64,000 nucleotides of DNA, from positions 124,001 to 188,000 of the forward strand of contig NZ_BSOS01000090.1 in the NCBI RefSeq assembly GCF_030160635.1. Reading direction: 5' to 3'. A program made the translations under genes and the position numbers. Within the stretch, counting starts at the first letter, position 1, and every line of letters begins with the position of its first letter. The stretch comes from Acidocella aquatica (GTDB taxonomy: Bacteria; Pseudomonadota; Alphaproteobacteria; Acetobacterales; Acetobacteraceae). Shown here one piece after another: positions 7,133 to 43,065 of the stretch. Under the pieces are notes generated by a model. That model had not been told where the DNA came from. It saw only the letters and a program-made list of their open reading frames with translations, and did not search any database.

Positions 7133-7220
7133 TATATACAATTTGACCATAAATAATATAGTAGTCAATGCGACGGGCGCAAAGTATCTTGCCCGGTTTT
7201 ATGAATTATGATTATACAAA
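7133..7220. promoter_or_regulatory. Two TTGTATA-type sites in a divergent promoter region
   Basis: TATATACAA (7133-7141) and TTATACAAA (7212-7220) lie in the AT-rich gap between the SDR operon and the VOC-DUF35-thiolase operon. Both match one arm and centre of the TTGTATACAA palindrome seen at other promoters of this window. A GntR/FCD regulator is the suggested binder. Confidence 0.5.
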
Positions 7221-7252
7221 ATTACAACAAAAGTATAAAAGGAATCGGACGG

Positions 7253-7789
7253 ATGCCCAGGAATCTGATTGCCGGTATTGGCAATGTCATGCAGCTCGCC
7301 TTTGTTCCCGCGGATGTGGATGCGGCGCTGAAATACTGGACGCAGACCATGGGTGCTGGCCCCTTCGTGGCGCTGGACCATGTGCAAATGGACGCCGCTA
7401 CCTATAAAGGCGCGCCGGTGGCGATCGATTTCAGTGTCTACATCGGGTATTGGGGCGATTTGCAGATCGAGATCATCGCGCAGCACGACGATACGCCCTC
7501 GATCTATAAATCCTGGCGCGATGAGGGGTGCGAAGGGCTGCACCATGTCTGCCTGATCACCAGCGACATGGCCAAGGCGCGGCGCATCATTCAGGATGCC
7601 GGCGGCACCGTGGTGCAGGAGGCGTTTCTCCCCGGCGGCGTGGAGGCATTTTATGCTGAGACCGGCGGCGGACCGGGGACCATGGTTGAGGTATTGCAGC
7701 CAAACCAGGCGATACTGGATGCGTTTGCCCACATCAAAAGCCTCTCGGTGGGCTGGGACGGAGCTGACCCCGTGCGGAGGCTTGGCTGA
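7253..7789 (+). CDS. VOC (glyoxalase/bleomycin resistance superfamily) protein
   Basis: The 178 residues form a two-module VOC fold: MQLAFVPADVDAALKYWTQTMGAGPF at the start and LHHVCLITSDMAKARRIIQDAGGTVVQE in the second half. Metal-ligand candidates are the His in GLHHV and the late Glu in TMVEVLQP. The branch resembles glyoxalase_4-type proteins next to CoA-ester catabolism genes, such as methylmalonyl-CoA epimerase-like proteins, but the reaction is not fixed. The start at 7253 is preferred over an upstream ATG at 7208 because AAAGGAATCGG precedes it and the extra residues are unlike the family. Its stop overlaps the DUF35 start by one base (TGATG), so it leads the operon. Confidence 0.82.
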   Translation: MPRNLIAGIGNVMQLAFVPADVDAALKYWTQTMGAGPFVALDHVQMDAATYKGAPVAIDFSVYIGYWGDLQIEIIAQHDDTPSIYKSWRDEGCEGLHHVCLITSDMAKARRIIQDAGGTVVQEAFLPGGVEAFYAETGGGPGTMVEVLQPNQAILDAFAHIKSLSVGWDGADPVRRLG

Positions 7790-8199
7790 TGCGCGCGATC
7801 GCGCCTGATTTGTTCATCGAAACGCCCGAGGGCCCGCGTCTGCTGGGTGGGCGGCGGCGTGAGGGCGGAGATGTTGTGTTTCCGTTGCCGCAAGGCGGCG
7901 AGCGGGCTTTTTATGAGCCCGTGGAACTCTCGCCGCACGGCCTGCTGTGGAGCTGGACGGTGCAGCGCTTCCGTCCGAAATCGCCGCCTTATGCTGGTGA
8001 TGAGGATGAACGCGGCTTTCAGCCTTATGCGGTCGGCTATGTCGAGTTGCCGGGTGAGGTGATTGTGGAATCCCGCCTGGAGTTCGGCGAGGTTGAGCCG
8101 CGCCTGGGGCTTTCGATGCGGTTGGAGATTGTGCCCTTTAACCATGGGGCCGATGGCGATTTACAAAGTTGTTACATCTTCCGGGCGGAGGGGGCATGA
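7789..8199 (+). CDS. DUF35 / OB-fold protein lacking the zinc-ribbon cysteines
   Basis: The 136-residue protein matches the ChsH2/DUF35 family through its OB-fold: LSPHGLLWSWTVQRFRPKSPPY, then FQPYAVGYVELPGEVIVESRL. DUF35 proteins usually have a four-Cys rubredoxin-like zinc ribbon before the OB-fold. Here the corresponding segment (GPRLLGGRRREGGDVVFP) has none, and the only Cys is near the C terminus. In actinobacterial steroid degradation DUF35 domains bind acyl-CoA and form complexes with Ltp2 thiolase-like aldolases. The gene is sandwiched by overlap between the VOC and thiolase-like genes, which supports a complex with the latter. Confidence 0.82.
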   Translation: MRAIAPDLFIETPEGPRLLGGRRREGGDVVFPLPQGGERAFYEPVELSPHGLLWSWTVQRFRPKSPPYAGDEDERGFQPYAVGYVELPGEVIVESRLEFGEVEPRLGLSMRLEIVPFNHGADGDLQSCYIFRAEGA

Positions 8200-9338
8200 G
8201 CGAGGTTTTTATTGTCGGGGCGGGGATTCATCCCTTCGGGCGGCATGAGCTTTCCGGGCTTGACCAGGGCGTGTTCGCGGCACGGGCGGCGCTGGCCGAT
8301 GCAGGTGTGGAGTGGCGCGATGTGCAATGCGCCTTTGGCGGCTCCTTCGCGGCCGGCGATGCCGATGCGGCGCTGCCGCGGCTGGGGCTCACGGGCGTGC
8401 AGTTTATCAACGTCGCCAATGGCTGCGCCACGGGCGGCTCGGCGCTGCTTTCAGCCTATTGGGCAATCAAGTCCGGCGAGTTCGATCTGGCGCTCGTGCT
8501 GGGGTTTGATAAGCATCCGCGCGGCTCCTTCAACCCAGCGCCGGCCGATATGGGGCTGCCTGATTGGTACGGCGAGCTGGGCATGATGCTCACCACGCAG
8601 TTTTTCGCCAACAAGATCCAACGTTACATGGCACTCTACGGCATCAGCCGGCGCACGCTGGGGCTGGTCGCGGAAAAGGCGTTCGCCAATGCGGTGCATG
8701 CGCCGCATGCCTGGCGGCGTGCCCCGGTGGCGCTGGATGACATTCTTAACGCGCAGATGGTGAATGATCCGCTAACCAAATTCATGTTCTGCTCACCCTC
8801 CGAGGGTGGGGCGGCGTTGATCCTGGCCAGCCCGGCGCGCGCGCGCCAGCTGGGGCGCGACCAGATAAGGCTGCGCGGCGCCGCCATGCGGACCAGGGTA
8901 AAAGGTTCGTTCGAGGTGTTCTCGCCAAGCCTGGACATTGAGCGCGGCCCCTCGCCAGCGGAGATGGCCGCCAAAGCTGCCTTCCAGATGGCCGGGCTTG
9001 GGCCCAAGGATATGAATGTGTTGCAGCTTCAGGATACAGAATCGGGCGCTGAAATCATGCATATGGCGGAGAACGGATTCTGTGAGCATGGCGCGCAGGA
9101 GAAGTTGATCCAATCGGGCGCCACACGTATCGGAGGACCGATGCCGGTGAACACGGATGGCGGTTGCCTGGCCTGCGGCGAGCCGATTGGCGCCTCGGGG
9201 CTGCGCCAGGTCTACGAGAACGTCATCCAGCTGCGCGGCCAGGGCGGCGGGCGCCAGGTGCCGGGCAACCCGGGGATAGGCTACAGCCAGGTTTATGGCG
9301 CGCCAGGGTTGGCAGCGGTCACCATCATCGGGAAATAG
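8196..9338 (+). CDS. Thiolase-like lipid-transfer protein (Ltp2/SCP-x type)
   Basis: The 380 residues have a thiolase fold. A nucleophile-position Cys77 occurs in NVANGCATGGSAL, and the C-terminal loop is CGEPIGASG. In true thiolases that loop reads GHPxGxSG; here the His is Glu329, so ordinary Claisen chemistry is doubtful. Loss of this His is a feature of Ltp2-like proteins, which act as retro-aldolases on steroid side-chain CoA esters together with a DUF35 partner. The DUF35 gene directly upstream overlaps this start as ATGA (8196-8199), so this start is preferred. Aldol cleavage of a tertiary hydroxyacyl-CoA is a reasonable inference, not shown. Confidence 0.88.
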   Translation: MSEVFIVGAGIHPFGRHELSGLDQGVFAARAALADAGVEWRDVQCAFGGSFAAGDADAALPRLGLTGVQFINVANGCATGGSALLSAYWAIKSGEFDLALVLGFDKHPRGSFNPAPADMGLPDWYGELGMMLTTQFFANKIQRYMALYGISRRTLGLVAEKAFANAVHAPHAWRRAPVALDDILNAQMVNDPLTKFMFCSPSEGGAALILASPARARQLGRDQIRLRGAAMRTRVKGSFEVFSPSLDIERGPSPAEMAAKAAFQMAGLGPKDMNVLQLQDTESGAEIMHMAENGFCEHGAQEKLIQSGATRIGGPMPVNTDGGCLACGEPIGASGLRQVYENVIQLRGQGGGRQVPGNPGIGYSQVYGAPGLAAVTIIGK

Positions 9339-9423: not shown

Positions 9424-9591
9424 CATGACCCGTTGCAGACAAGCCTGTCTAAACCTTGATATTTTCCATTGGCGATGAGCGGCATGCCGATATGTATCAA
9501 CATCGCCTTCTGCTTAAAATCATGACTTTTAGATATATTAATACCGTTATTTCATAGAGTTACAGCACGCCGCATAATGAAAGGAAACACC

Positions 9592-17940: not shown

Positions 17941-18105
17941 CCTTGAACTCCTCGCTTCCCTTGAGTTTTTGTTTTATCTTACGTTCGCACTCCACCGCCC
18001 CCAAAAGAGGCGGAAGCCAAATGAAACCGGGACCACCGCTACAGCCTCCCGCTCCCTCGATGCTGAACCGCCCGAAGGCAAATTCGCCTCATTCGTTTTA
18101 TATAA

Positions 18106-18134
18106 ATAATGCTACACTAAAAATAATATTGCAA
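18106..18134 (-). promoter_or_regulatory. Candidate promoter for the DUF1302 operon
   Basis: Reading leftward, TTGCAA (18129-18134) and CATTAT (18106-18111) are 17 bases apart, a sigma70-like arrangement with four of six matches in each box. The surrounding 18090-18165 is very AT-rich. It lacks the TTGTATA site found at other promoters here, although TTTATATAA-like runs are present. Confidence 0.35.
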
Positions 18135-18182
18135 TGGATTTATATAATATTCGGCGTTTTTTCTGCGCGGCACCGCCCAAGC

Positions 18183-25185: not shown

Positions 25186-25190
25186 AAAAT

Positions 25191-27461: not shown

Positions 27462-27516
27462 GGGCGTTCCTTTCGGTATTTTTTATATGGCCTTATATTA
27501 CATATATAAGGACGTT

Positions 27517-27526
27517 TTGTATATAA
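27517..27526. promoter_or_regulatory. TTGTATATAA site upstream of the Rieske oxygenase gene
   Basis: TTGTATATAA lies 56 bases before the GTG start of the oxygenase at 27461, in a very AT-rich stretch (27475-27535). It differs from the perfect palindrome by one base pair. Its position overlaps where a core promoter would be, consistent with repression. Confidence 0.5.
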
Positions 27527-27535
27527 TTTTTCAAA

Positions 27536-28924: not shown

Positions 28925-29007
28925 GATGTTTCTTCCGTTCTTGCGCCGGCGCCGCCCGGCATTTTTATTTGACGATTTACACGCAGTTAAATATAATACT
29001 AAAAGTC

Positions 29008-29021
29008 TTTTGTATACAAAA
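29008..29021. promoter_or_regulatory. Perfect palindrome TTTTGTATACAAAA
   Basis: A 14-base perfect dyad in the 141-base gap between two divergent Rieske oxygenase genes, 84 bases before one start and 45 bases before the other. It is the best copy of the motif shared by at least seven promoter regions here. It matches the FCD GntR operator form. Confidence 0.65.
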
Positions 29022-29065
29022 AATACGCCAGCCACTGGCGCACAAAGGAAGGAACACCGTCCAAG

Positions 29066-30241: not shown

Positions 30242-30340
30242 GCCGCCGCGCCTCCCGCCTCCGGCGCGCGCAGGGCCGGAGGCGGTCGCGCCGGTGCGCG
30301 AACGGGGTTGCGTGGAGGCGCGACATCCAGCATATTAAAT

Positions 30341-30347
30341 TATACAA
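30341..30347. promoter_or_regulatory. TATACAA half site before the SDR gene
   Basis: AAATTATACAAAT surrounds a TATACAA half site 19 bases before the SDR ATG at 30366. It is one arm of the shared palindrome and would overlap the ribosome-binding region. As a single half site it is weaker evidence than the copies at 27.5, 29.0 and 43.1 kb. Confidence 0.35.
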
Positions 30348-30365
30348 ATAACAGGAATTTTTATA

Positions 30366-31085: not shown

Positions 31086-31117
31086 ACGGCCCAACATAAA
31101 ATTCAGATGAGGGTGAA

Positions 31118-31867
31118 ATGATGATGCTGACAGGAAAAGTGGCGCTGGTGACCGGCGCTGGCGCGGGAATTGGCCGGGCCATCGCCGAGAGCTACGCGCG
31201 CGAGGGCGCCCGGCTGGTGATCTCGGATGTGAATGCGGCGCTGGGTGCCGAGACCGTGGCCACGATTGAGGCGCTGGGCGGACAGGCCGTTTTCGTGAAG
31301 GCCGACGTCGCCGAGGCAGCGGGGCATGTGGCGCTGGTTGCCGCGGCGCATCAGCATTTCGGCGCGCTGCACATTGCCTGCAACAACGCCGGCATCGCCG
31401 GGGGCGGGCGCGCGCTTACCGAGACCACCGATGAAGACTGGGGCCGCGTGATCGCGGTCAACCTCACCGGCGTGTTCCTCGGCATGCGGGCGCAAATCCC
31501 CGCCATCGCGGCCGCCGGGGGCGGGGCCATCGTCAATATCGCCAGCGTCCTCGGCAGCGTCGCCATCCCCAATTCCGCCCCTTATGTCGCCTCCAAGCAT
31601 GGCTGCGTCGGGCTCACCCGCGCCGCGGCGCTGGAAGCCGCCGGGCAGAAGGTGCGGGTGAATGCCGTCGGGCCGGGTTTCATCGCCACCCCCATGGCCG
31701 CCAAGCTCGATCAGGCGAGCATTGACGCTATCGCCGCCAAGCACGCCCTCGGGCGTTGGGGGACCGCGCAAGAGATCGCCGAAGTGGCGCTGTGGCTCGC
31801 CTCCGACAAGGCGAGCTTCGTCACCGGCGCCTATTACACCGCCGACGGCGGCTACTCGGCTCAATAG
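31118..31867 (+). CDS. SDR family oxidoreductase
   Basis: The 249-residue SDR has TGAGAGIG (12-19), NNAG (89-92), Ser143, Tyr156 and Lys160 (YVASK), and ends TGAYYTADGGYSAQ. Asp37 after the second strand (LVISDV) suggests NAD. The blocks ALTETTDEDWGRVIAVNLTGVFLGM are typical of FabG-like enzymes of alcohol/ketone catabolism. Three consecutive Met codons at the start leave a small ambiguity; AGGG sits five bases before the first. It is the second SDR of the run and ends one base before the next GTG start, so translation of the pair is probably coupled. Confidence 0.91.
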   Translation: MMMLTGKVALVTGAGAGIGRAIAESYAREGARLVISDVNAALGAETVATIEALGGQAVFVKADVAEAAGHVALVAAAHQHFGALHIACNNAGIAGGGRALTETTDEDWGRVIAVNLTGVFLGMRAQIPAIAAAGGGAIVNIASVLGSVAIPNSAPYVASKHGCVGLTRAAALEAAGQKVRVNAVGPGFIATPMAAKLDQASIDAIAAKHALGRWGTAQEIAEVALWLASDKASFVTGAYYTADGGYSAQ

Positions 31868-31868
31868 C

Positions 31869-32624
31869 GTGAACACGCTCTTCGGCCTCTCCGGCAAAAC
31901 GGTGCTGGTAACCGGCGCCTCCTCGGGGCTTGGCGCGCATTTCGCCACCGTTCTGGCCAAGGCGGGGGCCAACCTCATCCTCGCGGCGCGGCGCCAGGGC
32001 GCGCTGGAGGAGACCGCCGAAGCCGCGCGCCGCCTTGGCGCCACGGTCACCGCCGTACCGGTGGATGTCACCTCCTCAGCCTCGGTGGCGGCACTCGCCC
32101 CGGCCATCGCGCAGGTGGACGTGCTGATCAACAACGCCGGCATCGTGCGCAGCGCCCCCGCACTGGCCCAGACCGAAGAGGACTGGGACACGGTGATCGA
32201 CACCAACCTCAAAGGCATGTTCCTCGTCGCGCAGGCAGCGGCACGGGCGATGAAGGCGCATGGGCGCGGCGGGGCCATCGTCAACATCGCCTCCATCCTG
32301 GGGCTGCGCCAGGCGGGCGGTGTGGCGCCCTATGCCATCTCGAAGGCGGGCGTGGTGCAGATGACCAAAACCCTCGCCCTGGAGCTGGCGCGCTACAATA
32401 TCCGCGTGAACGCCCTGGCGCCGGGCTATCTGGACACCGCGCTCAATCGCGAATTCTGGGAAACCGAGACCGGCCAGGCGCTGATCCGGCGCATTCCCGC
32501 CCGCCGCCTCGGCCAGCCCGCGGAGCTTGACGGGCCGCTGCTGCTGCTGGCTTCCGAGGCGTCGGCCTATATGAGCGGCGCGGTGCTCGCCGTCGATGGC
32601 GGACACCTCGTCAACACGTTGTAA
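31869..32624 (+). CDS. SDR family oxidoreductase
   Basis: The 251-residue SDR has TGASSGLG (15-22), NNAG (88-91), Ser142, Tyr155 and Lys159 (YAISK), and AVDGGHL at the C terminus. After strand two it has ARRQ rather than an acidic residue, which suggests NADP use, unlike its two SDR neighbours. GTG at 31869 is taken as start because the SDR fold begins seven residues later and no ATG exists nearby. It directly follows the previous SDR and is 12 bases before the acyl-CoA dehydrogenase. With LvaD-like SDRs next to kinase/dehydrogenase pairs in mind, one of these three may act on a hydroxyacyl-CoA. Confidence 0.9.
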   Translation: MNTLFGLSGKTVLVTGASSGLGAHFATVLAKAGANLILAARRQGALEETAEAARRLGATVTAVPVDVTSSASVAALAPAIAQVDVLINNAGIVRSAPALAQTEEDWDTVIDTNLKGMFLVAQAAARAMKAHGRGGAIVNIASILGLRQAGGVAPYAISKAGVVQMTKTLALELARYNIRVNALAPGYLDTALNREFWETETGQALIRRIPARRLGQPAELDGPLLLLASEASAYMSGAVLAVDGGHLVNTL

Positions 32625-32636
32625 GGAGTTAATCGG

Positions 32637-33818
32637 ATGTCCAACCCAGACCCCGAACTGACCGCAAGGCTGACGCGCGATGTCGAGCGCTTCGTGCGCG
32701 AGGTGGTGATCCCCTATGAGACAGACCCGCGCCGCGGCCCGCACGGCCCGCTCGATTCACTGGTGATGGAGCTGCGCGAGAAAGCCCGCGCGGCCGGGGT
32801 GCTCACCCCGCATATCCGCCCCGGCGGCGCGCATCTCACCCAGCGTGAAACCGCCGCCATCCTCAAAAAATCCGGCCTCTCGCCGCTCGGCCCGCTGGCC
32901 TGCAACACCGCGGCCCCCGATGAAGGCAACATGTTCCTCATGGGCCGCGTGGCCAGCGCCGCGCAAAAAGCGGAGTTTCTGCAGCCCGTCGTTGAGGGGC
33001 GGGCGCGCTCAGCCTTCCTGATGACCGAACCCGCTGCCGAGGGCGGCGCCGGCTCCGACCCCTCGATGCTCAAAACCCACGCGGTGCGCGCGGGCGATGA
33101 ATGGGTCATCAACGGCCGCAAGGCCTTCATCACCGGGTTTGATGGCGCGCATACCGGCATCGTCATGGCCCGCACGCGCGATGGCGAGCGCCCGGCCGCG
33201 ACCATGTTCCTCGTCAGGCTCCCGCACCCGGCCATCAGCATCGAGCGCATTCTGGACACCATCGACAGCTCCATGCCCGGCGGCCATGCGGTGCTCAACA
33301 TCGAGAATCTGCGCGTCCCGGCCGCCAATGTTCTGGGCGAGGTGGACGAGGGCTTCAAATACGCCCAGGTCCGCCTCTCGCCCGCGCGGCTTTCGCATTG
33401 CATGCGCTGGTGGGGCGCCGCCGCGCGCGCGCAGGAGATCGCCAGCCAATACGCCTGCACGCGCGAGGCGTTCGGTAAGAAGCTCATCGAGCATGAGGGC
33501 GTGGGCTTCATGCTGGCGGAGAACCTCATCGCGCTGAAACAGGCGGAGCTGATGATCGATTGGTGCGCCGATGTGCTCGATACCGGCGAATCCGGCACGG
33601 TGGAAAGTTCCATGACCAAGGTTGCGGTCTCGGAACTACTCTTTGCCATCGCCGATCGCTGCGTCCAGGTGATGGGCGGCACCGGCGTCACCGGGGATAC
33701 GATCGTCGAGCAGGTATTCCGTGAAATCCGCGCCTTCCGGATTTATGACGGCCCGACCGAGGTGCATAAATGGTCTCTCGCGCGCAAAATCCGGCGCGAC
33801 CACGCGAAGCGGCCATGA
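32637..33818 (+). CDS. Acyl-CoA dehydrogenase (ACAD10/11- or LvaC-like)
   Basis: The 393-residue flavoprotein has FAD-binding FLMTEPAAEGGAGSDPSML and the C-terminal RIYDGPTEVHKWSLARKI with the catalytic Glu375 at the position used by short/medium-chain and ACAD10/11-type enzymes. The R-CMRWWG block (RLSHCMRWWGAAARAQE) is also typical of ACAD10/11. AAGGAG eight bases upstream fixes the ATG. It overlaps the next gene, a phosphotransferase, by four bases. In animals both activities are fused in ACAD10/ACAD11, and in Pseudomonas LvaA/LvaC they phosphorylate a 4-hydroxyacyl-CoA and eliminate the phosphate. The same reaction is inferred here. Confidence 0.9.
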   Translation: MSNPDPELTARLTRDVERFVREVVIPYETDPRRGPHGPLDSLVMELREKARAAGVLTPHIRPGGAHLTQRETAAILKKSGLSPLGPLACNTAAPDEGNMFLMGRVASAAQKAEFLQPVVEGRARSAFLMTEPAAEGGAGSDPSMLKTHAVRAGDEWVINGRKAFITGFDGAHTGIVMARTRDGERPAATMFLVRLPHPAISIERILDTIDSSMPGGHAVLNIENLRVPAANVLGEVDEGFKYAQVRLSPARLSHCMRWWGAAARAQEIASQYACTREAFGKKLIEHEGVGFMLAENLIALKQAELMIDWCADVLDTGESGTVESSMTKVAVSELLFAIADRCVQVMGGTGVTGDTIVEQVFREIRAFRIYDGPTEVHKWSLARKIRRDHAKRP

Positions 33819-34864
33819 GCGGGACCGAAAACGAGGGCACCACCGCGGTCCGCCCCGGCTTCGGCTTCGATGAAGCCCGTCTGGCCGGGTGGATGGAAGC
33901 GCATGTCGAGGGATTTTCCGGGCCGCTCAGCGTGCGCCAGTTCAAGGGCGGGCAGTCCAACCCCACCTACCAGCTCGTCACCCCCGGGCGGCGCTATGTG
34001 CTGCGCCGCAAGCCGCCGGGGCAGTTGCTCAAGGGCGCCCACGCGGTGGAGCGCGAGGCGCGGGTGCTGAGCGCGCTATCTGGCTCCGGCCTGCCGGTGC
34101 CCCGCGTCTTTGGCCTCTGCACCGATGAGAGCGTGATCGGCACCTGGTTTTTCATCATGGAGATGGTGGAAGGGCGTATCTTCTGGGACGCGACCTTCCC
34201 CGATGTTTCGCGCGCATCCCGCCCCGCCTATTTCGCCGCGATGAACGGCGCCATCGCAGCACTCCACAAGGCCGATTACATGGCGCTCGGGCTGGGCGAT
34301 TTCGGCCGCACCGGGAATTATTTCTCCCGCCAGATTGAACGCTGGGCCGGGCAGTATGAGGCAGACCATGAGGCCGGGCGCGACGCCAACATGGACCGGC
34401 TGATCAGCTGGCTGCGCGCCCATATCCCCGCTGACGACACCACCAGCCTGGTGCATGGCGATTTCCGGTGCGACAACATGATCTTCCACCCCACCGAGCC
34501 TCGCGTGCTCGCCGTGCTGGACTGGGAGCTCTCAACCCTCGGCCACCCGCTGGCTGATTTCGCTTATCACGCCATGATGTACCGCATGCCGCCGCATATC
34601 GTGGCGGGGCTGAAGGGTGCTGATCTCGCCGCGCTCAACATTCCCTCCGAGGAAGACTACATCGCTGCCTATTGCGCCAATACCGGGCGCGCGGGCATCC
34701 CGGATTACAAATTCTACGCGGCGTTCTCGTTCTTTCGCATCGCGGCGATTTTCCACGGGGTGAAGGGGCGCGTGCTGCGCGGCACGGCGGCCTCAGCGCA
34801 GGCGCTGGAGCGGGTGCAGGTGTTGCCCGAGCTCATGGCCCTGGCCTGGGCGCAGGCGGCCTGA
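33815..34864 (+). CDS. Phosphotransferase, APH family (ACAD10/11 kinase- or LvaA-like)
   Basis: The 349-residue protein is an aminoglycoside-phosphotransferase-fold kinase. It has the loop GGQSNPTYQL (45-54), YVLRRKPPGQLL around the ATP-binding Lys, the catalytic HGDFRCDN (His214, Asp216, Asn221) and the metal-binding Asp236 in VLDWELSTLGHP. It resembles the kinase half of ACAD10/11 and LvaA, which phosphorylate the 4-hydroxyl of acyl-CoA. The ATG overlaps the TGA of the acyl-CoA dehydrogenase (ATGA, 33815-33818), and an upstream in-frame codon inside that gene is rejected. It closes the operon that begins at 30366. Confidence 0.9.
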   Translation: MSGTENEGTTAVRPGFGFDEARLAGWMEAHVEGFSGPLSVRQFKGGQSNPTYQLVTPGRRYVLRRKPPGQLLKGAHAVEREARVLSALSGSGLPVPRVFGLCTDESVIGTWFFIMEMVEGRIFWDATFPDVSRASRPAYFAAMNGAIAALHKADYMALGLGDFGRTGNYFSRQIERWAGQYEADHEAGRDANMDRLISWLRAHIPADDTTSLVHGDFRCDNMIFHPTEPRVLAVLDWELSTLGHPLADFAYHAMMYRMPPHIVAGLKGADLAALNIPSEEDYIAAYCANTGRAGIPDYKFYAAFSFFRIAAIFHGVKGRVLRGTAASAQALERVQVLPELMALAWAQAA

Positions 34865-34883
34865 GCCGCCTGCCCCGCCTGCC

Positions 34884-35624
34884 TCACGGCGCCAGAAACC
34901 CGCCATCGACCGCCAGCAGCGCGCCGCTGACATAGGCGGCCTCATCCCCCGCCAGCCAGAACACCGCCTTGGCGATATCCTCGGGCATGCCCAGCCGGCC
35001 CAGCGGCACATCGCCCACGATCGCCGGCGGCCACGCATCCCCCGCCGCCGCGCGCAGCATCGGCGTGTCGATCGGCCCCGGCGCGATCGCGTTCACGCGG
35101 ATATTGCTGGAACCATTCTCCAGCGCGGCCGCGCGCGTCAGCGCGACCACGGCCGATTTGCTGGCGGCATAAAACGCCGCCCCCGGATAGACGACCCGCA
35201 CCCCCTGCACCGAGGCGATGTTGACAATCGCCCCCCGGCCCGCCGCGCGCATCGCCAGCAGCGCGTGCTTCATGCCAAACACCACGCCTTTCACATTCAC
35301 CCCCAGCACGGCATCCAGCGCCTCGGCGCTCTGCTCATGGATCGGCACCCACGGCCCGAGGATGGCGGCATTGTTGACCATGACATCCAGCCGGCCAAAA
35401 CGCTGTTTCGCGGTTTCCACCAGCGCGGCCACATCAGCCTCCTGCGAGACATTGGCGCGCTGCGCGATGGCGCTCCCGCCCGCCGCCTCAATCGCGGCCA
35501 CGGTCTGCGCCAGCCCGGCCTCGTTCAAATCCGCTACCAGAACCTTATCCCCGGCTTTTGCAAAAGCCTCGGCAATGGCCCGGCCCATACCGCCGCCTGC
35601 CCCCGTCACGATGACACCACGCAT
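34884..35624 (-). CDS. SDR family oxidoreductase
   Basis: The 246-residue SDR has TGAGGGMG (7-14), NNAAI (84-88), Ser138, Tyr152 and Lys156 (YAASK), with Asp32 (VLVADL) pointing to NAD, and ends VSGALLAVDGGFLAP. It is a FabG-like dehydrogenase of unknown alcohol substrate. It is the only gene on its strand here: convergent with the kinase gene (20 bases) and divergent from the TetR regulator, which probably controls it. It is thus likely a separately regulated branch of the same pathway. Confidence 0.9.
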   Translation of the reverse strand: MRGVIVTGAGGGMGRAIAEAFAKAGDKVLVADLNEAGLAQTVAAIEAAGGSAIAQRANVSQEADVAALVETAKQRFGRLDVMVNNAAILGPWVPIHEQSAEALDAVLGVNVKGVVFGMKHALLAMRAAGRGAIVNIASVQGVRVVYPGAAFYAASKSAVVALTRAAALENGSSNIRVNAIAPGPIDTPMLRAAAGDAWPPAIVGDVPLGRLGMPEDIAKAVFWLAGDEAAYVSGALLAVDGGFLAP

Positions 35625-35648
35625 GATCGTCTTATCCTTTCCAGTTGA

Positions 35649-35665
35649 TTGTTACGCGATTACAA
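35649..35665. promoter_or_regulatory. Candidate TetR operator
   Basis: TTGTTA-CGCGA-TTACAA is a 17-base imperfect dyad (five of six arm positions match) in the 100-base gap between the SDR and the TetR gene. Position and symmetry suggest the TetR protein represses both. It differs from the TTGTATACAA motif by its longer centre. Confidence 0.4.
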
Positions 35666-35724
35666 ATCAGGCAAAGCCCCGCCCCGGCGTGAGCAGCCCG
35701 AAACCATCAGGCCCGGAGACATAG

Positions 35725-36321
35725 ATGCCCGCCATTGTCGACCATGATGAGCGCCGCCGTGAGGTGACCGAGGCCGCCTTCCGGCTGGTGGCCAAAAGCG
35801 GCCTGGCGGCACTCACCGTGCGCGCCGTCGCCGATGAGGTCGGCTGCTCGACCGCCGTGGTCAGCCATTATTTCGAGAACAAGCGCCAACTCCTGATCCA
35901 GACCTACGAGCTGAGCGCCGACCGCGCCGCATCGCGGTTTTTCGCCGCGCGTGACAGCCAGGCCGATCTGGCGGGCTGCCTCGCCGTGTTGCTGCCGCTT
36001 GATGCGGCGCGCGCGGATGACTGGAACGTCTGGTTCTGCTTCTGGGGCGAGGCGGTGGCCGACCCGGAGCTCGGCATGCGCCAGCGCGCGCGCGTGGCCA
36101 ACACCATCGGCTTCATCGCCACGCTGCTGCGCCGCGACTGGCCCCGCCTGCGCACCGCCGGTGAACCCCTGGTCGAGCACCTGGCCAGCCGGATTCTCTC
36201 GGCATTGCTCGGCGTCGCCGTGCAGGCACTGTTCTCCCCCGCACTCTGGCCGCCCGCGCGCCAGCTCCAGATCATTACAGACGAGTTGGCCAGCCTCGAT
36301 CATCATGGCGCCTCATTGTAG
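35725..36321 (+). CDS. TetR family transcriptional regulator (BetI-like)
   Basis: The 198-residue protein has an N-terminal TetR helix-turn-helix (RREVTEAAFRLVAKSGLAALTVRAVADEVGCSTAVVSHYFENKRQLLI, residues about 10-58). An all-helical ligand domain follows, with no Cys-rich or metal pattern. The recognition helix STAVVSHYF is like that of BetI-group repressors. It is divergent from the SDR at 34884-35624, and a dyad at 35649-35665 lies between them. Downstream, the convergent crotonase gene ends at 36385. The inducer is not predictable. Confidence 0.91.
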   Translation: MPAIVDHDERRREVTEAAFRLVAKSGLAALTVRAVADEVGCSTAVVSHYFENKRQLLIQTYELSADRAASRFFAARDSQADLAGCLAVLLPLDAARADDWNVWFCFWGEAVADPELGMRQRARVANTIGFIATLLRRDWPRLRTAGEPLVEHLASRILSALLGVAVQALFSPALWPPARQLQIITDELASLDHHGASL

Positions 36322-36384
36322 CCTATCATAAGCTTGGCCGCCTGGCGGGCGCGCCCCATCGCCGGGCCGGGCGCCGCCGCGCGC

Positions 36385-37158
36385 TCACGCGCCGTGCCAT
36401 TGCGGGGCGCGCTTCTCCGCAAAGGCAGCCATGCCTTCAACCTTGTCCTGCGTGGCGCAAAGCCCGTTGAACAACCGGCGCTCAAACAGCAGCCCGTGCG
36501 CCAGCCCGGTCTCAAACGCGGCATTCACCATTTCCTTGTTGGCCATCGCGGCCAGCGGCGCCATCGCGGCAATCGCCTGCGCCTGCGCCAGCGCCTCCTC
36601 CAGCAGCCGCGCCGCCGGCACGACCTGCGCCACCAGCGAGGCCCGCTCCGCCTCCTCGGCCTTCATCATGCGCCCGGTGAGGCACATCTGCATCGCCTTC
36701 GCCTTGCCCACCGCCCGCGTCAAACGTTGCGAGCCGCCCATGCCCGGCGCAATCCCGAGCTTGATCTCCGGCTGGCCGAACTGCGCGGTGTCAGCGGCAA
36801 TAATGTAATCGGCCATCATCGCCAGCTCGCAGCCACCGCCCAGCGCGAACCCGGCCACCGCCGCGATCCAGGGTTTACGCGCGGCGCTCACCCGCTCGAA
36901 ACCGGCAAAAAAATTCTCGCCATACATGGCCGAAAAACCCTTGGGCTGCATCTCCTTAATATCCGCCCCGGCGGCAAAGGCCTTCTCGGAGCCGGTGAGC
37001 ACAAGGCAGCGCTGGCTCTCATCGGCATCATAGGCGGCAAAGGCCGCGATCAGGTCGCGCAGCACCTGGCTGTTCAATGCGTTCAACGCGTTGGGGCGGT
37101 TCAACCGCAACAGGGTTACCGCGCCATGCGTCTCGGCAAGCAAAGTCTCGTAGGTCAC
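36385..37158 (-). CDS. Enoyl-CoA hydratase
   Basis: The 257-residue crotonase has both catalytic glutamates: Glu111 in [11 protein letters not shown] and Glu131 in [16 protein letters not shown]. The oxyanion-hole segment is [11 protein letters not shown]. The length and the [27 protein letters not shown] block match short-chain enoyl-CoA hydratases (FadB1x/PaaF-like). GTG at 37158 is preferred because AAAGGG lies seven bases upstream; an ATG seven codons earlier has no site. It overlaps nothing but follows the next crotonase by 41 bases on the same strand. It would hydrate 2-enoyl-CoA in side-chain beta-oxidation. Confidence 0.91.
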
Positions 37159-37199
37159 ATCACACCCTTTCAAAAACATGCAAATCCCCGCGCCGCGGC

Positions 37200-37988
37200 T
37201 CAGCCACACGCCAGAAAATCAGGCTTGCGCTTGGCCAGAAACGCGGCGATCCCCTCGCGCGCCTCGGCATCATTGCCGCTTTGCGCGATGGCGCGGGCCT
37301 CGGCCTCCAGCTGGGCGGGCAGTGTGGCCGCAAAACTCTCAAGCAACAGGGCGCGCGTGCGCCCCCAGGCGCGCACCGCCCCGCCCGCCACGCGCGCGGC
37401 CATCGCGTCCGCCTCGGCCTGCAATGTCTCATCGGGGCAAAGCCGGGTGATCATACGCTCGGCAAGCGCCTGCTCAGCACTCAGGCGCAGCCCCAGCAGC
37501 AACATCTCCTGCGCGCGGCGCAGCCCCACCAACCTGGGCAACAGCCAGCTCGCACCGCCATCGGGCGAGAGGCCAATGCCGCCATAGGCCGGCGCGAACA
37601 CGGCACTTTGCCCCGCCAGCACCAGATCGCCCGCCAGCGCCAGGCTGAATCCCGCCCCTGCCGCCGGGCCGTTCACCGCCGTGACCAGCGGTTTCTCCAT
37701 CCGCGCGAATATCGCCATCGCGGCGTGCAGATCGGCGGTCAGCGTGCGCGTGAGCGCGCCCAAGCTCTCAAGCCGCGACGAGAACGCGCCGATATCCCCG
37801 CCCGCGCAAAAAACCCGCCCGCTGGCGCGCAGCACCACACATCGTATGCCAGGGTCTTCAGCGCATGAAATGGCGGCCTCGCGCAGGGCCTTGGCCATGG
37901 CGGGGTCTATGGCATTTCCAGCCTCGGGGCGGTTCAGCGTGAGCCTCGCCACCGCGCCCTCACGCGTCAGCAGAACCGGATCCGTCAT
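37200..37988 (-). CDS. Enoyl-CoA isomerase/hydratase, PaaG-like
   Basis: The 262-residue crotonase lacks the first catalytic Glu ([15 protein letters not shown], Ser115 at that place). It has Asp143 in [15 protein letters not shown], the pattern of PaaG-type isomerases (GLxPDGG). PaaG shifts double bonds in ring or acyl CoA esters. It is therefore likely an enoyl-CoA isomerase, not a hydratase. It is first in a two-crotonase leftward unit, and a TTGTATA site lies about 65 bases upstream of the ATG. Its hydratase partner is downstream. Confidence 0.88.
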
Positions 37989-38053
37989 GGCGCATCCTGT
38001 GAGCCGGGGTGGCGAAACATTTCACGTCCCTTTTTTATATTTATAAACAAAAC

Positions 38054-38060
38054 TTGTATA
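38054..38060. promoter_or_regulatory. TTGTATA half site before the crotonase pair
   Basis: AACTTGTATAAAC at 38051-38063 includes a TTGTATA half site about 65 bases upstream of the PaaG-like start at 37988. It is 27 bases beyond the stop of the convergently read ThuA gene. It is consistent with the shared operator but incomplete. Confidence 0.4.
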
Positions 38061-38086
38061 AACTTTGCCGCGCGATGCAAAACCTG

Positions 38087-38872
38087 TCAAGCAAAAGCCT
38101 CACCCCCCAGCAACCAGGCCAGCCCGTTGCCGATCAGACGCCGCAGCCCCTCATTGGCGTAGGCCTCGGCTGAATCGCCGCATTGTATGTAGAGGATCGG
38201 GCTGTTGCGCTCCCGCCGCGTCCAGGCGATCAGATTACTCCCCGGCGGATGCCTCCAGCCCTCGCGGCTATGGAACGCGCCGCGCATGGCCGCCGCGGCC
38301 GACCAGAAATTCTCCTCGGCAAACACGTGGCCGCTGGCCAGCAATGGGACAATACTGTCATCAAACACCTCGAACAAATAAAGTTCGTCGGTAATCTCAA
38401 ACCCCTGTTCCACCCCCTCCAGCACGGGGTGGCGCGTGAGCGGGCGCACACGGTGCGTCACCTCATGCCGATAGCCGGAATCAGGGCGTAACCGCCCCCG
38501 GACATCACCCGGCTGGTAGAGAAACCGCCCGCCGATAATCTCACCGTAGCGCGGCCAGGCCGGCCAGCCGGCGATGGCATGATGAAGAAAGAGCAGCGGT
38601 TTGCCCGCTGCGAGCAGCGCCTCGATATGCGCCTGATAGGCCTCACTCGGCGGCTCAAAGACCGGCGGCTCGGGAACCCTGAAGCCAATTCCGGGCATAT
38701 CATAAAACAGCACCGCATCGAAACGGGTCACGAAATCCGGCGCCAAGGCTGCCTCAACCGCCGGATGCTCAACCAGCGTGAACTCATGTCCGCCGGGCAG
38801 CGCCTCCAGCATCTGCGAAAATGCGTTGCGGTCATAAGGATGGCCTTTGACCGGCACCAAAATCGCCGCCAC
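38087..38872 (-). CDS. ThuA-domain (trehalose-utilisation-like) protein
   Basis: The 261-residue protein has the class-I glutamine-amidotransferase-like ThuA fold: DAVLFYDMPGIGF, then GKPLLFLHHAIAGWPAWPRYGEIIGGRFLYQP and LTRHPVLEGVEQGFEITDELYLFEVFDDS. No Cys of a GATase triad is at the expected place, as usual in ThuA. The GTG start follows GGGAGG. ThuA proteins have no settled activity; their place next to acyl-CoA genes is not explained by trehalose metabolism. A second ThuA gene at 42253-42990 lies in an acyl-CoA dehydrogenase operon, suggesting a common role in this pathway. Confidence 0.85.
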   Translation of the reverse strand: MAAILVPVKGHPYDRNAFSQMLEALPGGHEFTLVEHPAVEAALAPDFVTRFDAVLFYDMPGIGFRVPEPPVFEPPSEAYQAHIEALLAAGKPLLFLHHAIAGWPAWPRYGEIIGGRFLYQPGDVRGRLRPDSGYRHEVTHRVRPLTRHPVLEGVEQGFEITDELYLFEVFDDSIVPLLASGHVFAEENFWSAAAAMRGAFHSREGWRHPPGSNLIAWTRRERNSPILYIQCGDSAEAYANEGLRRLIGNGLAWLLGGEAFA

Positions 38873-39047
38873 GCCTAACGCCTCCCGCCGGCATCACCGG
38901 GGACAAAGGCGAGCCGCATGTCACCGCCGGTATCTGCCATTAAATTCCCGCGCATCCGTCCACTTCCATTTATGCTTTTATTGTCATTTCGCATATTTCA
39001 ATTGCCGGGCGCGCCATACAATAATGCAGCTGGAACACTCGAACGAT

Positions 39048-39088
39048 AAAAAACAAAAAGGCGCCGCCGGGCCAGTTTCCAGCGGCGC
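39048..39088 (-). terminator. Intrinsic terminator after the SDR operon
   Basis: On the minus strand GCGCCGC and GCGGCGC pair over seven bases (39061-39067 and 39082-39088). They are followed by CTTTTTGTTTTTT (39048-39060). It is 22 bases beyond the SDR stop. It separates the ThuA gene from the unit that begins at 42990. The rest of 38873-39047 is an AT-rich ThuA promoter region without a clear motif. Confidence 0.85.
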
Positions 39089-39109
39089 TCCAGTTTGGCT
39101 GGGAGAAAC

Positions 39110-39862
39110 CTACTTTGCCGTCACGGCGTCATCGATGATGATCTCTGTGGCGTTGACCATGCGGCTTTCATCAGAGGCCAGGTAAAGCACCAGATTCGCA
39201 ATGTCCTCGGGCTGGCCGACCTTAGGCGCCTTGGCGGGGTCGGCCACCGGCACATCCAGCCCGCGGCGCTTCACTTCCTCGGCGGCCGCTGCGGTCATGT
39301 CACTGGCGATGATGCCGGGCAATATCGCATTCACACGGATGTTGTAGCCCTGCTCCTGGCAATATACCGCTATATTGCGCGACATCGAGCGCACGGCCCC
39401 CTTCGCCGCCGCATAGGAACAAACGATTGGATAGGCTGTCAGCGAGGCAACGGACGACATGTTGATAATCGATCCGCCGCCCGATTTTTTCATCAGAGGA
39501 ATCGCCGCCTGGCAACCCAGGAACGTCCCCTCGGCCGAGATGGCATAGACCCTTCTGAAATTTTCCAGTGTCGATTCCTCGATGGTCGTGAAATCAACAA
39601 TACCGGCATTATTGACCAGCACATCCAGCCGGCCAAATTTCGCCTCCGCCAGCGCGATCACCTCTGCCCAGCCCTCCGGCGAAGTGACATCCTGCACAAC
39701 CCCGATCGCCCCTTCAATTTGCGCGGCGGTTTCCATGACTTTCGGGCTGATGTCGGTGAGAATGACGCGCGCCCCCTCCTTCGCGAGCAAACGCGCGTCG
39801 GCCTCGCCCAGACCACGCGCCGCGCCCGTGACAATGGCAACTTTTCCTGATACCCGTCCCAT
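39110..39862 (-). CDS. SDR family oxidoreductase
   Basis: The 250-residue SDR has TGAARGLG (12-19), NNAG (84-87), Ser136/137, Tyr150 and Lys154 (YAAAK). Asp37 (VILTDI) suggests NAD. The YAISAEGTFLGCQAAIPLMKKSGGGSIINMSSVAS block is like 3-alpha/20-beta-hydroxysteroid dehydrogenases and cyclohexanol dehydrogenases. It is the last gene of the leftward ThuA-ACAD-ACAD-SDR unit, 22 bases after the acyl-CoA dehydrogenase, with a strong terminator behind it. It would oxidise the alcohol formed after hydration of the enoyl-CoA, or a ring hydroxyl. Confidence 0.91.
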   Translation of the reverse strand: MGRVSGKVAIVTGAARGLGEADARLLAKEGARVILTDISPKVMETAAQIEGAIGVVQDVTSPEGWAEVIALAEAKFGRLDVLVNNAGIVDFTTIEESTLENFRRVYAISAEGTFLGCQAAIPLMKKSGGGSIINMSSVASLTAYPIVCSYAAAKGAVRSMSRNIAVYCQEQGYNIRVNAILPGIIASDMTAAAAEEVKRRGLDVPVADPAKAPKVGQPEDIANLVLYLASDESRMVNATEIIIDDAVTAK

Positions 39863-39884
39863 TTTTCTTCCCTTCTGTTTTTTT

Positions 39885-41075
39885 CTAAAGTTTCAACAAT
39901 TGCTTCGCGATAATGGTTCTCTGAATTTCGGAGGATCCGCCGAAAATCGTATTGGCCCTGGTGTTCAAATAACGCGACAACGCCGGCTTGTTCGCGTCCT
40001 CATCCGGCGTTGAACAAATTTCATGAAAGGCGCGGTGTGTTTCCCAGCGCAGGGCGGATTCACCGGCAAGCTGCAATGCCATTTCCGTCACCTGCTGCTG
40101 CAACTGGCTCACGCGCAATTTGAGAATGGAGGATTCCGCGCCTGGCGCTTCCCCCCGCGACAGGCTGGAGAGCATCGTCAATTCCATCATCTCAAGCGTA
40201 TCGATATCTATTCCAAGCCGTGAGAGCGAATATTCAATATCCGGATCGTCAATATCAATCGCGAGCGCCCGATCGAGCAATTCATTGAGCGAGCGCCGCA
40301 ACGACGCCGCCGCCATGACACTGCCGCGCTCGAATTCCAGAAGATATTTCGCAATCGCCCATCCCTGGCCCTCGGCGGCCACGAGATTCTCCACGGGCAC
40401 GCGCGTGTCCTCGAAAAATACCTCGTTCACCTCATGGTCCCCGCCAATGGTGCGGATTGGGCGAACCTGCACGCCCGCCGCCGTCATGGGCACCAGCAGG
40501 CATGAGATTCCCGCCTGTGGCTTTGGCCCGTCTGATGTGCGCACAAGCGCGATCATCCAATTGGCCACATGGGCGTGCGTTGTCCATATCTTCGAGCCGT
40601 TCAGCACATAGTCGTCACCCTGCCGCACCGCGCGCAGCTTGAGAGATGCCAGATCAGACCCCGCGCCAGGCTCCGAGAAACCCTGGCACCAATAATCCTT
40701 GGCTTCAAGAATGCGCGGCAAAAACTGTTTCTTCTGTTCGGCGGTTCCAAATTTGATCAGCACGGGGCCGACCATATGCAGGCCGATCGGCGAAATATAA
40801 GGTGTCGCCGCGCGTTCCATTTCGGAGGCGAATATATACCGGCGGGTCGCATCCCAGCCGGTGCCGCCGTGTTCAACCGGCCAGTCCGGCGCCGCCCAGC
40901 CCTTGCGCGCCAGAATCTCGTGCCACGGGTGCGACAGCTCATATTCGGAGAAAACCGTCGTCGTCAGCCGCTGCGCGCGTGCCATCGCAGGCGGCAGCTT
41001 CGCGTCCAGGAAGGCCCGCACCTCCTCGCGAAACGCGGCCGCGTCCTCATCGAGCGTCAGATTCATTTTGTTCAT
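39885..41075 (-). CDS. Acyl-CoA dehydrogenase, steroid-type (large partner of a pair)
   Basis: The 396-residue protein has the FAD-binding CQGFSEPGAGSDLASL and KIWTTHAHVANW blocks and the C-terminal TIFGGSSEIQRTIIAKQLL. This is the FadE26/FadE34-like branch used for steroid side chains and other bulky acyl-CoAs. In actinobacteria it works as an alpha2beta2 heterotetramer with a second, divergent ACAD. The next gene upstream is such a partner and overlaps this start by four bases (41072-41075). The N-terminal start has ATG codons at positions 1 and 4. A paralogous partner pair is at 45214 and 47466. Confidence 0.91.
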   Translation of the reverse strand: MNKMNLTLDEDAAAFREEVRAFLDAKLPPAMARAQRLTTTVFSEYELSHPWHEILARKGWAAPDWPVEHGGTGWDATRRYIFASEMERAATPYISPIGLHMVGPVLIKFGTAEQKKQFLPRILEAKDYWCQGFSEPGAGSDLASLKLRAVRQGDDYVLNGSKIWTTHAHVANWMIALVRTSDGPKPQAGISCLLVPMTAAGVQVRPIRTIGGDHEVNEVFFEDTRVPVENLVAAEGQGWAIAKYLLEFERGSVMAAASLRRSLNELLDRALAIDIDDPDIEYSLSRLGIDIDTLEMMELTMLSSLSRGEAPGAESSILKLRVSQLQQQVTEMALQLAGESALRWETHRAFHEICSTPDEDANKPALSRYLNTRANTIFGGSSEIQRTIIAKQLLKL

Positions 41076-42241
41076 AATGCATACTCCGGGCGCATCTCGG
41101 GAACAGAGAGCAACCCTTCACGCAAAACACCAGTCCGCCCCACCCAGGCGTAGCGGCGAAGATGAAAATTTATATCGCCCAGCACAAGCTCGAACACGGT
41201 CAGCCGCTTGAAATAGGCCCCGACCGGTAATTCTTCGGTCACCCCCATGCCGCCGTGAAGCTGCACGGCCTGCTGGCCGATGAAACGGGCACATTCAGCG
41301 ATCTTGACCCGCGCGGCTGAAACCGCGCGCACGCGCTCATGGCTCGGCGCCTCGGCCTTGAGCGCGCCCAGCAGCAAAATCGCTTCGGCCTCCGCCTGTT
41401 TCACCGCCATATCCGCCATGCGATGTGTCAGCGCCTGGAAACTGCCGATGGGCTTGCCGAACTGCACGCGCGTCTTGGCGTATTCAACGGTTGCCGCCAG
41501 CAGAACTTTCATCGCCCCCACCGCATCGGCGCAAAGGGCAATGGCCGTGCGGTCGAGCGCCGCCTCCACATGGGGCAGAATATCGCGCCTTGCGCCCAAC
41601 AGCGCCGAAGGCGGCATGGTGACATTGCGAAACTCCATATCCGCGAAATCCGCCCCATCCGCCCCCTGCCAGGCCCTTCGCGTCACGCCGGGCGCATCGG
41701 GATCGATCATGAAAAGGCCAAACCCGCCCATCCCGTCGAGCCGTGCGAGTACCAGCAGCGTATCAGCCAACCCCCCGCCGCGCACGGCCGTCTTGGCGCC
41801 ATTGAGAACCCAGGTTCCCTGGCTGTGGGCCGCGCGCGTCGCAATTCCCTCCAGCGCCGCGCGGCGCGGCGTCTCGCCAACGGCCAACGCCAGCAAATGC
41901 GTGCCGGCCAGCACCGCATCGAGGATCGCATGCTGTTCATCATCGCCCAGTTTGGCGATCAGCTGCGCGCTGATGATGACCGGAAGATATGGCTCGACGA
42001 CCAGAGCCGCGCCAAACTGTTCCGATATCAACACTACATCTTCCATCTTGCCGCCAAAACCGCCCACCGATTCGGGGAGCGCCAGGGCCAGCCACCCCAT
42101 ATCCGCGAATCCCGCCCAGGCGGCCGGCGAAAAGCCAGGCCGCGCCGCGGGCGCCTCACGAAATTTCGGGTATTGCTCGGCAAGAAACCGCCGTGCGCTT
42201 TCCTTCAGCAGGAGTTGCTCTTCGGCCGGAAGAAGGTCCAT
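41072..42241 (-). CDS. Acyl-CoA dehydrogenase, steroid-type (second partner of a pair)
   Basis: The 389-residue protein is a divergent ACAD with weak FAD signatures: TPRRAALEGIATRAAHSQGTWVLNGAKTAVRGG, and VQLHGGMGVTEELPVGAYFKRL near the C terminus. In the active-site loop QLHGGMGVTEE keeps the Glu position used in ChsE-type subunits. Together with the overlapping downstream gene it forms the typical heteromeric acyl-CoA dehydrogenase of side-chain beta-oxidation. It follows a ThuA gene by 11 bases. A role in a specific chain length cannot be told. Confidence 0.9.
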   Translation of the reverse strand: MDLLPAEEQLLLKESARRFLAEQYPKFREAPAARPGFSPAAWAGFADMGWLALALPESVGGFGGKMEDVVLISEQFGAALVVEPYLPVIISAQLIAKLGDDEQHAILDAVLAGTHLLALAVGETPRRAALEGIATRAAHSQGTWVLNGAKTAVRGGGLADTLLVLARLDGMGGFGLFMIDPDAPGVTRRAWQGADGADFADMEFRNVTMPPSALLGARRDILPHVEAALDRTAIALCADAVGAMKVLLAATVEYAKTRVQFGKPIGSFQALTHRMADMAVKQAEAEAILLLGALKAEAPSHERVRAVSAARVKIAECARFIGQQAVQLHGGMGVTEELPVGAYFKRLTVFELVLGDINFHLRRYAWVGRTGVLREGLLSVPEMRPEYAL

Positions 42242-42252
42242 AGTCTATCGCC

Positions 42253-42990
42253 TTAAAGCTTGGCAGCCCAACGCAGGCCACGACGGAGAATTTCGTAATA
42301 GGTCGGGGTGTTCCAGGCACCGCGCTCGATATAGGGATAAACCGGCGTCAGCTCCGGCACATCGAACTTGCCACGGCAATGGCCGAGCGTGCAGTAGACG
42401 ATCTCGCCCCCCGAATGAACGCGATGATAAAGCACCGGATGCTCGCCCTCCGGCCACTCGTTGCGCACGAACGGATCGGCATTGCCGCCAAAACGCGTGG
42501 TCATCAACACATGGTTGCCGGGGTGGCAATCAGCGAGATAAAGCTCATCCTCGACCCAGAAATCAGCGATGCCGCGGCTCAGCTCGTGGCCATCATCGCA
42601 AACGCGAACCTGGAATTTACAAATCGGCGGATGCGCCTTGAACTGGCTGCCCAGCACTTCCATGAAGTCCGGGTGGGTGTCCGGCGCGTCGAACCGGCCA
42701 TCACCACGCTGGACCAGAACGGAATTGGTGCCATGCAGTGCTAGCCAGCGGCGGCCCTTGCCCAGAAAGGTTTTAAGCGCCGCGACGCCGCGCGGGCTTG
42801 GCTGCACATCGCATGTATAACTCACCAGCACATCCGCGTTCTCGATCGCCTCGTGATTTTCATAATCATCGGCCACCTGCACGCGCAAACGTTCATGCTC
42901 GGCCAGCAGCTTCAACAGCTCGAGCCGGGCGAAATCAAAATCATGATATTTACCGCCAGCGATAAGCAACAGCTTGATGGGCGTTTCCAT
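42253..42990 (-). CDS. ThuA-domain protein
   Basis: The 245-residue ThuA-fold protein has LLLIAGGKYHDFDFARLELL at the start, VLVSYTCDVQPSPRG, FLGKGRRWLALHGTNSVL, and HPVLYHRVHSGGEIVYCTLGHCRGKFD near the end. The catalytic nucleophile Cys of glutamine amidotransferases is absent at the elbow (ALHGT), as in ThuA. It is first in a leftward operon with two acyl-CoA dehydrogenases and an SDR, and only 11 bases separate it from the first. The upstream gap has a TTGTATATA site. It differs strongly from the other ThuA protein (38087-38872), so they are old paralogs. Confidence 0.87.
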   Translation of the reverse strand: METPIKLLLIAGGKYHDFDFARLELLKLLAEHERLRVQVADDYENHEAIENADVLVSYTCDVQPSPRGVAALKTFLGKGRRWLALHGTNSVLVQRGDGRFDAPDTHPDFMEVLGSQFKAHPPICKFQVRVCDDGHELSRGIADFWVEDELYLADCHPGNHVLMTTRFGGNADPFVRNEWPEGEHPVLYHRVHSGGEIVYCTLGHCRGKFDVPELTPVYPYIERGAWNTPTYYEILRRGLRWAAKL

Positions 42991-43056
42991 GACACCTCCT
43001 CCCAGGATTTTTTAACTTTATGATATGCCGCAGAATGATATATAATGAATGATTTT

Positions 43057-43065
43057 TTGTATATA
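43057..43065. promoter_or_regulatory. TTGTATATA site between ThuA operon and MDR gene
   Basis: GATTTTTTGTATATATTAAA contains TTGTATATA in the divergent gap 42991-43125. It lies 67 bases before the ThuA start and 61 bases before the MDR start. It is one of the better copies of the shared operator. Confidence 0.5.

Follow-up and report, generated by a model that had tools for sequence, protein, structure and literature searches.

A TTGTATA element shared by the promoter gaps of an Acidocella aquatica degradation cluster and its candidate FCD-type GntR reader

The described systems that this locus resembles are regulators of the FCD type. Several FCD groups recognize an A/T-rich palindrome with TKGT/ACMA boxes and a 2- or 3-base spacer (PMC4494728). 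Atu1419 of Agrobacterium fabrum, an FCD protein of the VanR group, binds the 10-bp palindrome ATGTATACAT with the spacing GT-N2-AC, and binding is abolished when G3 and C8 are replaced by A and T, respectively, in both arms together (PMC7797058). AlkR of Pseudomonas aeruginosa, of the GntR/VanR type, is a repressor that is released by acyl-CoA compounds (PMC12042122). Here, we describe the word TTGTATA, which recurs in the promoter gaps of a degradation cluster of Acidocella aquatica (GCF_030160635.1; genome of 4.03 Mb, 60.8% G+C), together with an FCD-type GntR regulator encoded in the same cluster, the best candidate for its binder among the regulators tested. The window, i.e., the whole stretch of DNA analyzed, comprised 64,000 nt (positions 124,001-188,000 of contig NZ_BSOS01000090.1, referred to as C90).

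The interval from 7 to 43 kb encodes Rieske oxygenases, SDRs, acyl-CoA dehydrogenases, crotonases, ThuA proteins, a 2-oxoacid dehydrogenase-like operon, an MMPL/BNR/DUF1329/DUF1302 group, one FCD GntR and one TetR. Among the literature matches listed for GntR/FCD with Rieske or Acidocella, there was no description of this regulon, and among those listed for the string TTGTATACAA there was no GntR study by title.

The TTGTATA word and its sites

Ten copies of TTGTATA (either strand) were found between 7135 and 43063, compared with 0.8 expected in 36 kb. The palindrome at 29010 reads TTGTATA on both strands, so the 10 copies correspond to nine sites. Seven of the 21 cluster gaps (2,372 bp in all 21) carried copies, and all 10 were intergenic with the VOC start at 7253, which was used for the gap counts; if the alternative start 7208 is taken, the copy at 7213 falls within the VOC gene. 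The gene models were codon-based calls, with six starts altered and one gene added by hand. The 19 remaining window gaps (3,580 bp) contained no copy, and the other 36 gaps in the 100-kb contig stretch (11,108 bp) had two, both upstream of a second FCD gene. None of 5000 dinucleotide-preserving shuffles of the cluster gaps reached at least 10 copies (mean 0.36, maximum 4). TTGTATA ranked first among 105 words of the same letters in the cluster gaps (10 vs. a mean of 0.77) and was also their top 7-mer in an unbiased count. The whole genome contains 89 copies, and the probability of finding 10 of them in 36 kb was about 8e-9, a value that is optimistic because the interval was picked post hoc. 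For the longer word TTTTGTATA, 6 of the 17 genomic copies were within the interval. The cluster gaps were alike in the core word only, with no wider similarity, and the sites were therefore not copied along with whole promoters. TTGTATA is a real, non-random shared element of these gaps.

A preliminary description of this DNA had listed eight ranges with variants of one palindrome in front of seven transcription units, and all eight ranges contain the stated kind of word. Its view that TTGTATA occurs in gaps and not in genes was borne out for the 10 cluster copies, given the VOC start at 7253, and did not extend further: of the 75 copies that lie off this contig stretch, 37 were within gene models, and the word is not restricted to gaps in general. 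Seven genes next to copies elsewhere in the genome, two tRNA synthetases, Usp, an SDR and a glyoxalase among them according to Pfam, gave no clear extension of the regulon. The region from 46 kb on had been described as free of such sites, and it contains no exact TTGTATA inside the window; four copies follow just beyond, around the second FCD gene, of which two are intergenic and two lie within genes. A single regulon of seven units was too strong a claim, since relatives lend no support to the gaps at 30341 and 38054 and have no gap corresponding to the one at 7.1 kb.

The element is mostly not a palindrome. As proposed, a perfect palindrome is present at 29008-29021; the exact TTGTATACAA occurs once in the genome, at 29010, and the other sites are one-armed. 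The copy at 27517 is one base off the palindrome, and its counterpart in the related genome G022 is the exact TTGTATACAA. Both FCD boxes (TKGT/ACMA) are present at 29010 and in this G022 counterpart, and a single box is present at the other sites, most of which have T in place of the required second-arm C, the kind of substitution that abolished binding when introduced into both arms of the Atu1419 palindrome. With at most two mismatches, TTGTATACAA had 15 matches in the window vs. 7.2 expected, 4 of which (20503, 25481, 27891 and 51135) were within gene models. The operator form TnGTnnnACnA, which the preliminary description had expected, had no match in 7-43 kb, and this consensus with its 3-base spacer was rejected. 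The palindrome has the spacing GT-N2-AC, which, if it is the operator, would correct the expected form to a 2-base spacer. The sites and related features are collected in Table 1.

Table 1. Positions of candidate sites, promoter features and the regulator gene in the window
Feature	Position	Strand	Remarks
Strongest candidate operator, perfect palindrome TTTTGTATACAAAA	29008-29021		14/14 columns identical in window, G010 and G022
Promoter-like TTGACG-N17-TATAAT for Rieske oxygenase 29066-30241	28969-28997	+	10 bases upstream of palindrome
TTTTTGTATATTAA (read on -), gap between E1alpha operon and ferredoxin	24765-24778	-	14/14 columns identical, 4 genomes
Site around TTGTATATATAT, E1alpha/ferredoxin gap	24784-24797	+	12/14 columns, 4 genomes; TTGTACA in G010 and G022
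TTTTGTATATAATT upstream of Rieske oxygenase 26079-27461	27515-27528	+	13/14 columns identical, 3 genomes
TTTTGTATATATTA between ThuA-ACAD operon and MDR gene	43055-43068	+	14/14 columns identical, 2 genomes
TTGTATA, SDR/VOC gap	7135-7141	-	Gap without counterpart in relatives
TTTTGTATAAT, SDR/VOC gap, -10-like	7213-7219	-	Within longest VOC reading frame
TTTGTATAAT upstream of SDR operon, doubtful	30341-30347	-	Not conserved, 8/14 columns (14-mer from 30336), 3 genomes
TTGTATA, doubtful	38054-38060	+	Gap missing from G010 and G022
Decayed copy TTTTAGATATATTAATACCG upstream of SDR 9592, approximate place	9527-9547	+	G010 has TTTTTTGTATATATTAAAACCG
Gap before DUF1302 operon	17941-18182		Window TTATATA; two TTGTATA in G015, one in G010
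Upstream gap of the regulator gene	25926-26078		No TTGTATA; TTATATATAA at 26048
FCD-type GntR regulator, proposed binder	25191-25925	-	Pfam GntR 52.3 bits, FCD 78.0 bits, both above cut-off

Conservation and rearrangement in related genomes

Of the 60 relatives searched, three (G010, G022 and G015, the last 92% complete) encode a close ortholog of the FCD protein, at 93-94% identity, and these were the relatives compared. Six sites whose gap could be aligned in a relative were taken for the conservation test; 7135, 7213 and 38054 had no counterpart and were excluded. At the six sites, 75 of 84 columns were identical, while the remainder of these gaps gave 379 of 588 (Fisher, 1.4e-6); for A/T positions only, the values were 67/75 and 213/300, respectively (9.5e-4). 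Random placement of six 14-mers equaled the observed conservation in 29 of 20000 trials. Five sites in four gaps (24652, 27462, 28946 and 42991) were conserved. The whole gap of the 29008 site is well kept (109/120), so that this site adds little alone.

The orthologous contigs were also rich in the word, with 8 of 56 genomic copies in G010 (1.3 expected), 5 of 61 in G022 (0.4 expected; total taken from a summary table) and 4 of 41 in G015 (0.2 expected). Palindromes are taken twice in these counts, and one G010 copy (27256) lies in a gene. TTTGTATACAAA was present in 3 of the 4 regulator-bearing genomes and in 2 of 33 other genomes of the same genus. In these two, G014 and G021, it stands at other genes, as blastx against the window proteins was empty for three of the four places and gave a generic SDR (32-39%) for the fourth. 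More distant FCD homologs were present in G141 and G324 (43 and 38% identity), which come from the 5 of 397 family genomes passing E 1e-40; their contigs contain no TTGTATA and, as judged by blastx, do not carry the cluster. Beside the G141 homolog, there was one partial SDR match, 52% to 5516-6274.

The gene order around two of the gaps differs between the genomes. G010 and G022 have the VOC gene between SDR and ThuA, in an SDR-VOC-ThuA-crotonase run, and in both ThuA abuts the crotonase gene. The window VOC promoter (7135 and 7213) and the 38-kb gap are therefore rearranged, and both rearranged gaps carry TTGTATA. For the relocated VOC region (7253-9338 and 37989-38086), nothing on the examined contigs of the relatives matched the OB-fold and thiolase genes after VOC at more than 70%. 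The second Rieske oxygenase (27536-28945) is 66% identical to its neighbor at 26079-27461 and is missing at the orthologous place in G010 and G022; it is likely a tandem duplicate or was lost in these relatives. The Rieske ferredoxin gene (24871-25185) is kept in G015; on the contigs of G010 and G022, nothing matched it at more than 70%.

The FCD regulator and alternative readings

The protein encoded at 25191-25925 has a GntR winged helix with the recognition helix SRTPVRE and an FCD domain, which places it in the FCD subfamily. Its best PDB sequence matches include the VanR-group chains 4p9f and 6z74. Chain 6z74 was taken as Atu1419 because the residue numbers of the alignment (Arg45, Asn137 and His141) fit the paper, and not from its title. 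In this alignment, the contacting side chains Arg31, Ser44, Arg45, Thr46 and Arg49 of Atu1419, as well as Glu34, which makes a main-chain contact, are identical in the Acidocella protein. By analogy, N129, H133, H177 and H199 are likely metal ligands; these residues and the SRTPVRE helix are invariant in the four orthologs. NCBIfam gave only matches below the cut-off, and the AlphaFold2 model (mean pLDDT 52) was too poor for counting the helices of the effector domain, of which the VanR group has six, not seven.

The regulators compared were this FCD protein, TetR 35725, LuxR 46484, TetR 48686 and the second FCD protein; LysR 4529 and the AraC named in the preliminary description were outside this set. 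The FCD gene was the only tested regulator common to all four genomes with conserved sites. There was no evident ortholog in G015 of TetR 35725 and TetR 48686 (best 29 and 25%, respectively) or LuxR 46484 (none), and the second FCD protein had no ortholog in G010, G022 and G015. This distribution supports the FCD protein and does not settle it. TetR 35725-36321, which the preliminary description had omitted, lies inside the interval, and its divergent gap (35625-35724) is without TTGTATA.

The word is present, enriched, placed in gaps and conserved, and the recognition residues of the FCD protein are identical with those of a solved relative. As judged from these sequence features, the shared element is most likely the operator of the FCD regulator, the five conserved sites in four gaps being its core and the remaining sites a loose margin. 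The preliminary description had also named this regulator, and in this respect it agrees with our candidate, although with a different operator form. We put the probability that the FCD GntR acts as a repressor on the TTTTGTATA half-sites of the core set at about 0.6. This set would comprise two Rieske oxygenases, the 2-oxoacid dehydrogenase-like operon, the divergent Rieske ferredoxin, the ThuA/acyl-CoA dehydrogenase operon and the divergent MDR. The two symmetric arms at 29008-29021 may form the strongest site, and one good arm with an AT-rich arm may form weaker sites, so that the one-armed sites would be graded in strength. The promoter upstream of the palindrome has 11 of 12 consensus matches, is the best of 9 found in 24600-43200 and is also present in G010 and G022; the 29008 site would cover the transcription start, a common position for a repressor. 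Bound protein at or just past the start would block RNA polymerase; it would be released, and the core set jointly induced, once a pathway intermediate (an acid or acyl-CoA) occupies the FCD pocket. We infer that this protein binds the sites and represses, what its ligand is and which of the weaker sites function; the analogy with Atu1419 and AlkR suggests repression that is relieved by an acid or acyl-CoA.

Several observations weigh against this assignment. Most sites have one intact arm and an AT-rich second arm, and TnGT-N2-ACnA is not enriched in 7-43 kb (9 matches, 8 in genes and 1 in a gap). TTGTATA is missing from the gap upstream of the regulator gene in each of the four genomes. The sites of the DUF1302 gap (G010 and G015) and upstream of SDR 9592 (G010) are intact in relatives and degraded in the window. 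Conservation among such closely related genomes is modest evidence; G015 is incomplete and its contig ends, so the missing regulators are perhaps an assembly gap. The helix SRTPVRE is frequent among proteins of this family, and SRTPVREA occurs in the second FCD protein as well. The word TTATATATAA in the regulator's gap (26048-26057) is present in the window and in G022, with one change each in G010 and G015. It fits the BioR consensus TTATMKATAA given in PMC4494728 and is at the same time plain AT-rich DNA.

A wider reading is that one FCD regulator controls the whole Acidocella degradation cluster via graded, mostly one-armed sites, with one full palindrome at a Rieske oxygenase and TTTTGTATA arms elsewhere, that the site set turns over between species and tracks gene relocation (VOC and the new ThuA-crotonase gap), and that the second FCD protein reads the same word. 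We consider this combined reading unlikely.

It is also rather improbable that the operator is real and owned by a different regulator, such as a regional TetR or LuxR, the second FCD protein or a protein encoded elsewhere, e.g., of the HutC type. Several TTTTGTATA-like words stand upstream (L027:6880-7055, C90 ~194880-195055) of the second FCD gene (L027:7055-7792, beyond the window end), whose protein shares 30% identity and the recognition helix with the first, but it lacks an ortholog where the sites persist, and the absence of evident G015 orthologs likewise argues against the two TetR proteins and LuxR. In G014, TTTGTATACAAA stands next to a MarR-like reading frame (by eye). The hut operators TTGTATATACAA on contig C65 contain the same half-site, but HutC was rejected as the owner, since TTGT-N4-ACAA, the form of the HutC operator, does not occur in the 100-kb stretch. 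The two perfect TTGTATATACAA palindromes (GT-N4-AC) at C65 96849 and 106536 (L112) are near HutC/HutF-looking frames (by eye), as expected of hut control; judging from positions, G010 (C96) and G022 (C11) may have this pair as well.

Of much the same low probability is the reading of the word as part of the core promoter, i.e., a -10-like or AT-rich element, rather than an operator. The copies at 7213 and 30341 read TTGTATAAT and include TATAAT, the cluster gaps are also dense in TATATA (13) and TATAAT (6), and in the DUF1302 gap G is replaced by A with the core otherwise unchanged. However, at 29008 and 43055 the word sits 10 and 8 bases, respectively, past a separate TATAAT (at 43041-43046 for the latter, for which the promoter scan listed no -35 partner), and it is therefore not the -10 element at these two places; in addition, TTGTATA outranks all words of the same letters and is missing from the 19 window gaps outside the cluster. 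That gaps rich in A/T, in an interval selected after inspection, share an AT-rich word by chance is very improbable, and this is disfavored by the per-gap shuffles and by the conservation of the sites.

Comparison with described regulators

The type of control proposed for the FCD regulator is ordinary, and the pathway is unstudied. If true, the assignment identifies both the regulator that switches this degradation pathway of an acid-loving genus and the core genes under its control, and the releasing compound would give a direct route to the pathway substrate. Outside the site-bearing interval, the closest PDB match of the flavoprotein encoded at 51462-53114 is the 3-oxosteroid 1-dehydrogenase 7p18 (E 1.2e-90), which hints at a steroid- or terpenoid-like substrate.

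The A/T-rich palindrome at 29008-29021 is like the operators of the FCD groups in PMC4494728, with TKGT/ACMA boxes and GT-N2-AC; the likeness is in the palindrome form and implies no ortholog relation. AlkR, a VanR-type repressor of an oxygenase gene, resembles the proposed system in its site over the promoter and its release by acyl-CoA compounds; its site ATTGTCAGACAAT has a 3-base spacer, and it has a single main target (PMC12042122). The full-length similarity to Atu1419 is low (phmmer E 1e-14), and the Acidocella system differs in the second base of TTGTATACAA, in its mostly one-armed sites, in its pathway and in the regulator's own promoter, which is without TTGTATA while that of the Atu1419 gene carries sites. 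Like Atu1419, the protein is an FCD regulator in a catabolic region with several candidate sites, some of them at the -10 box, and it has the residue of the Arg45-G3 contact.

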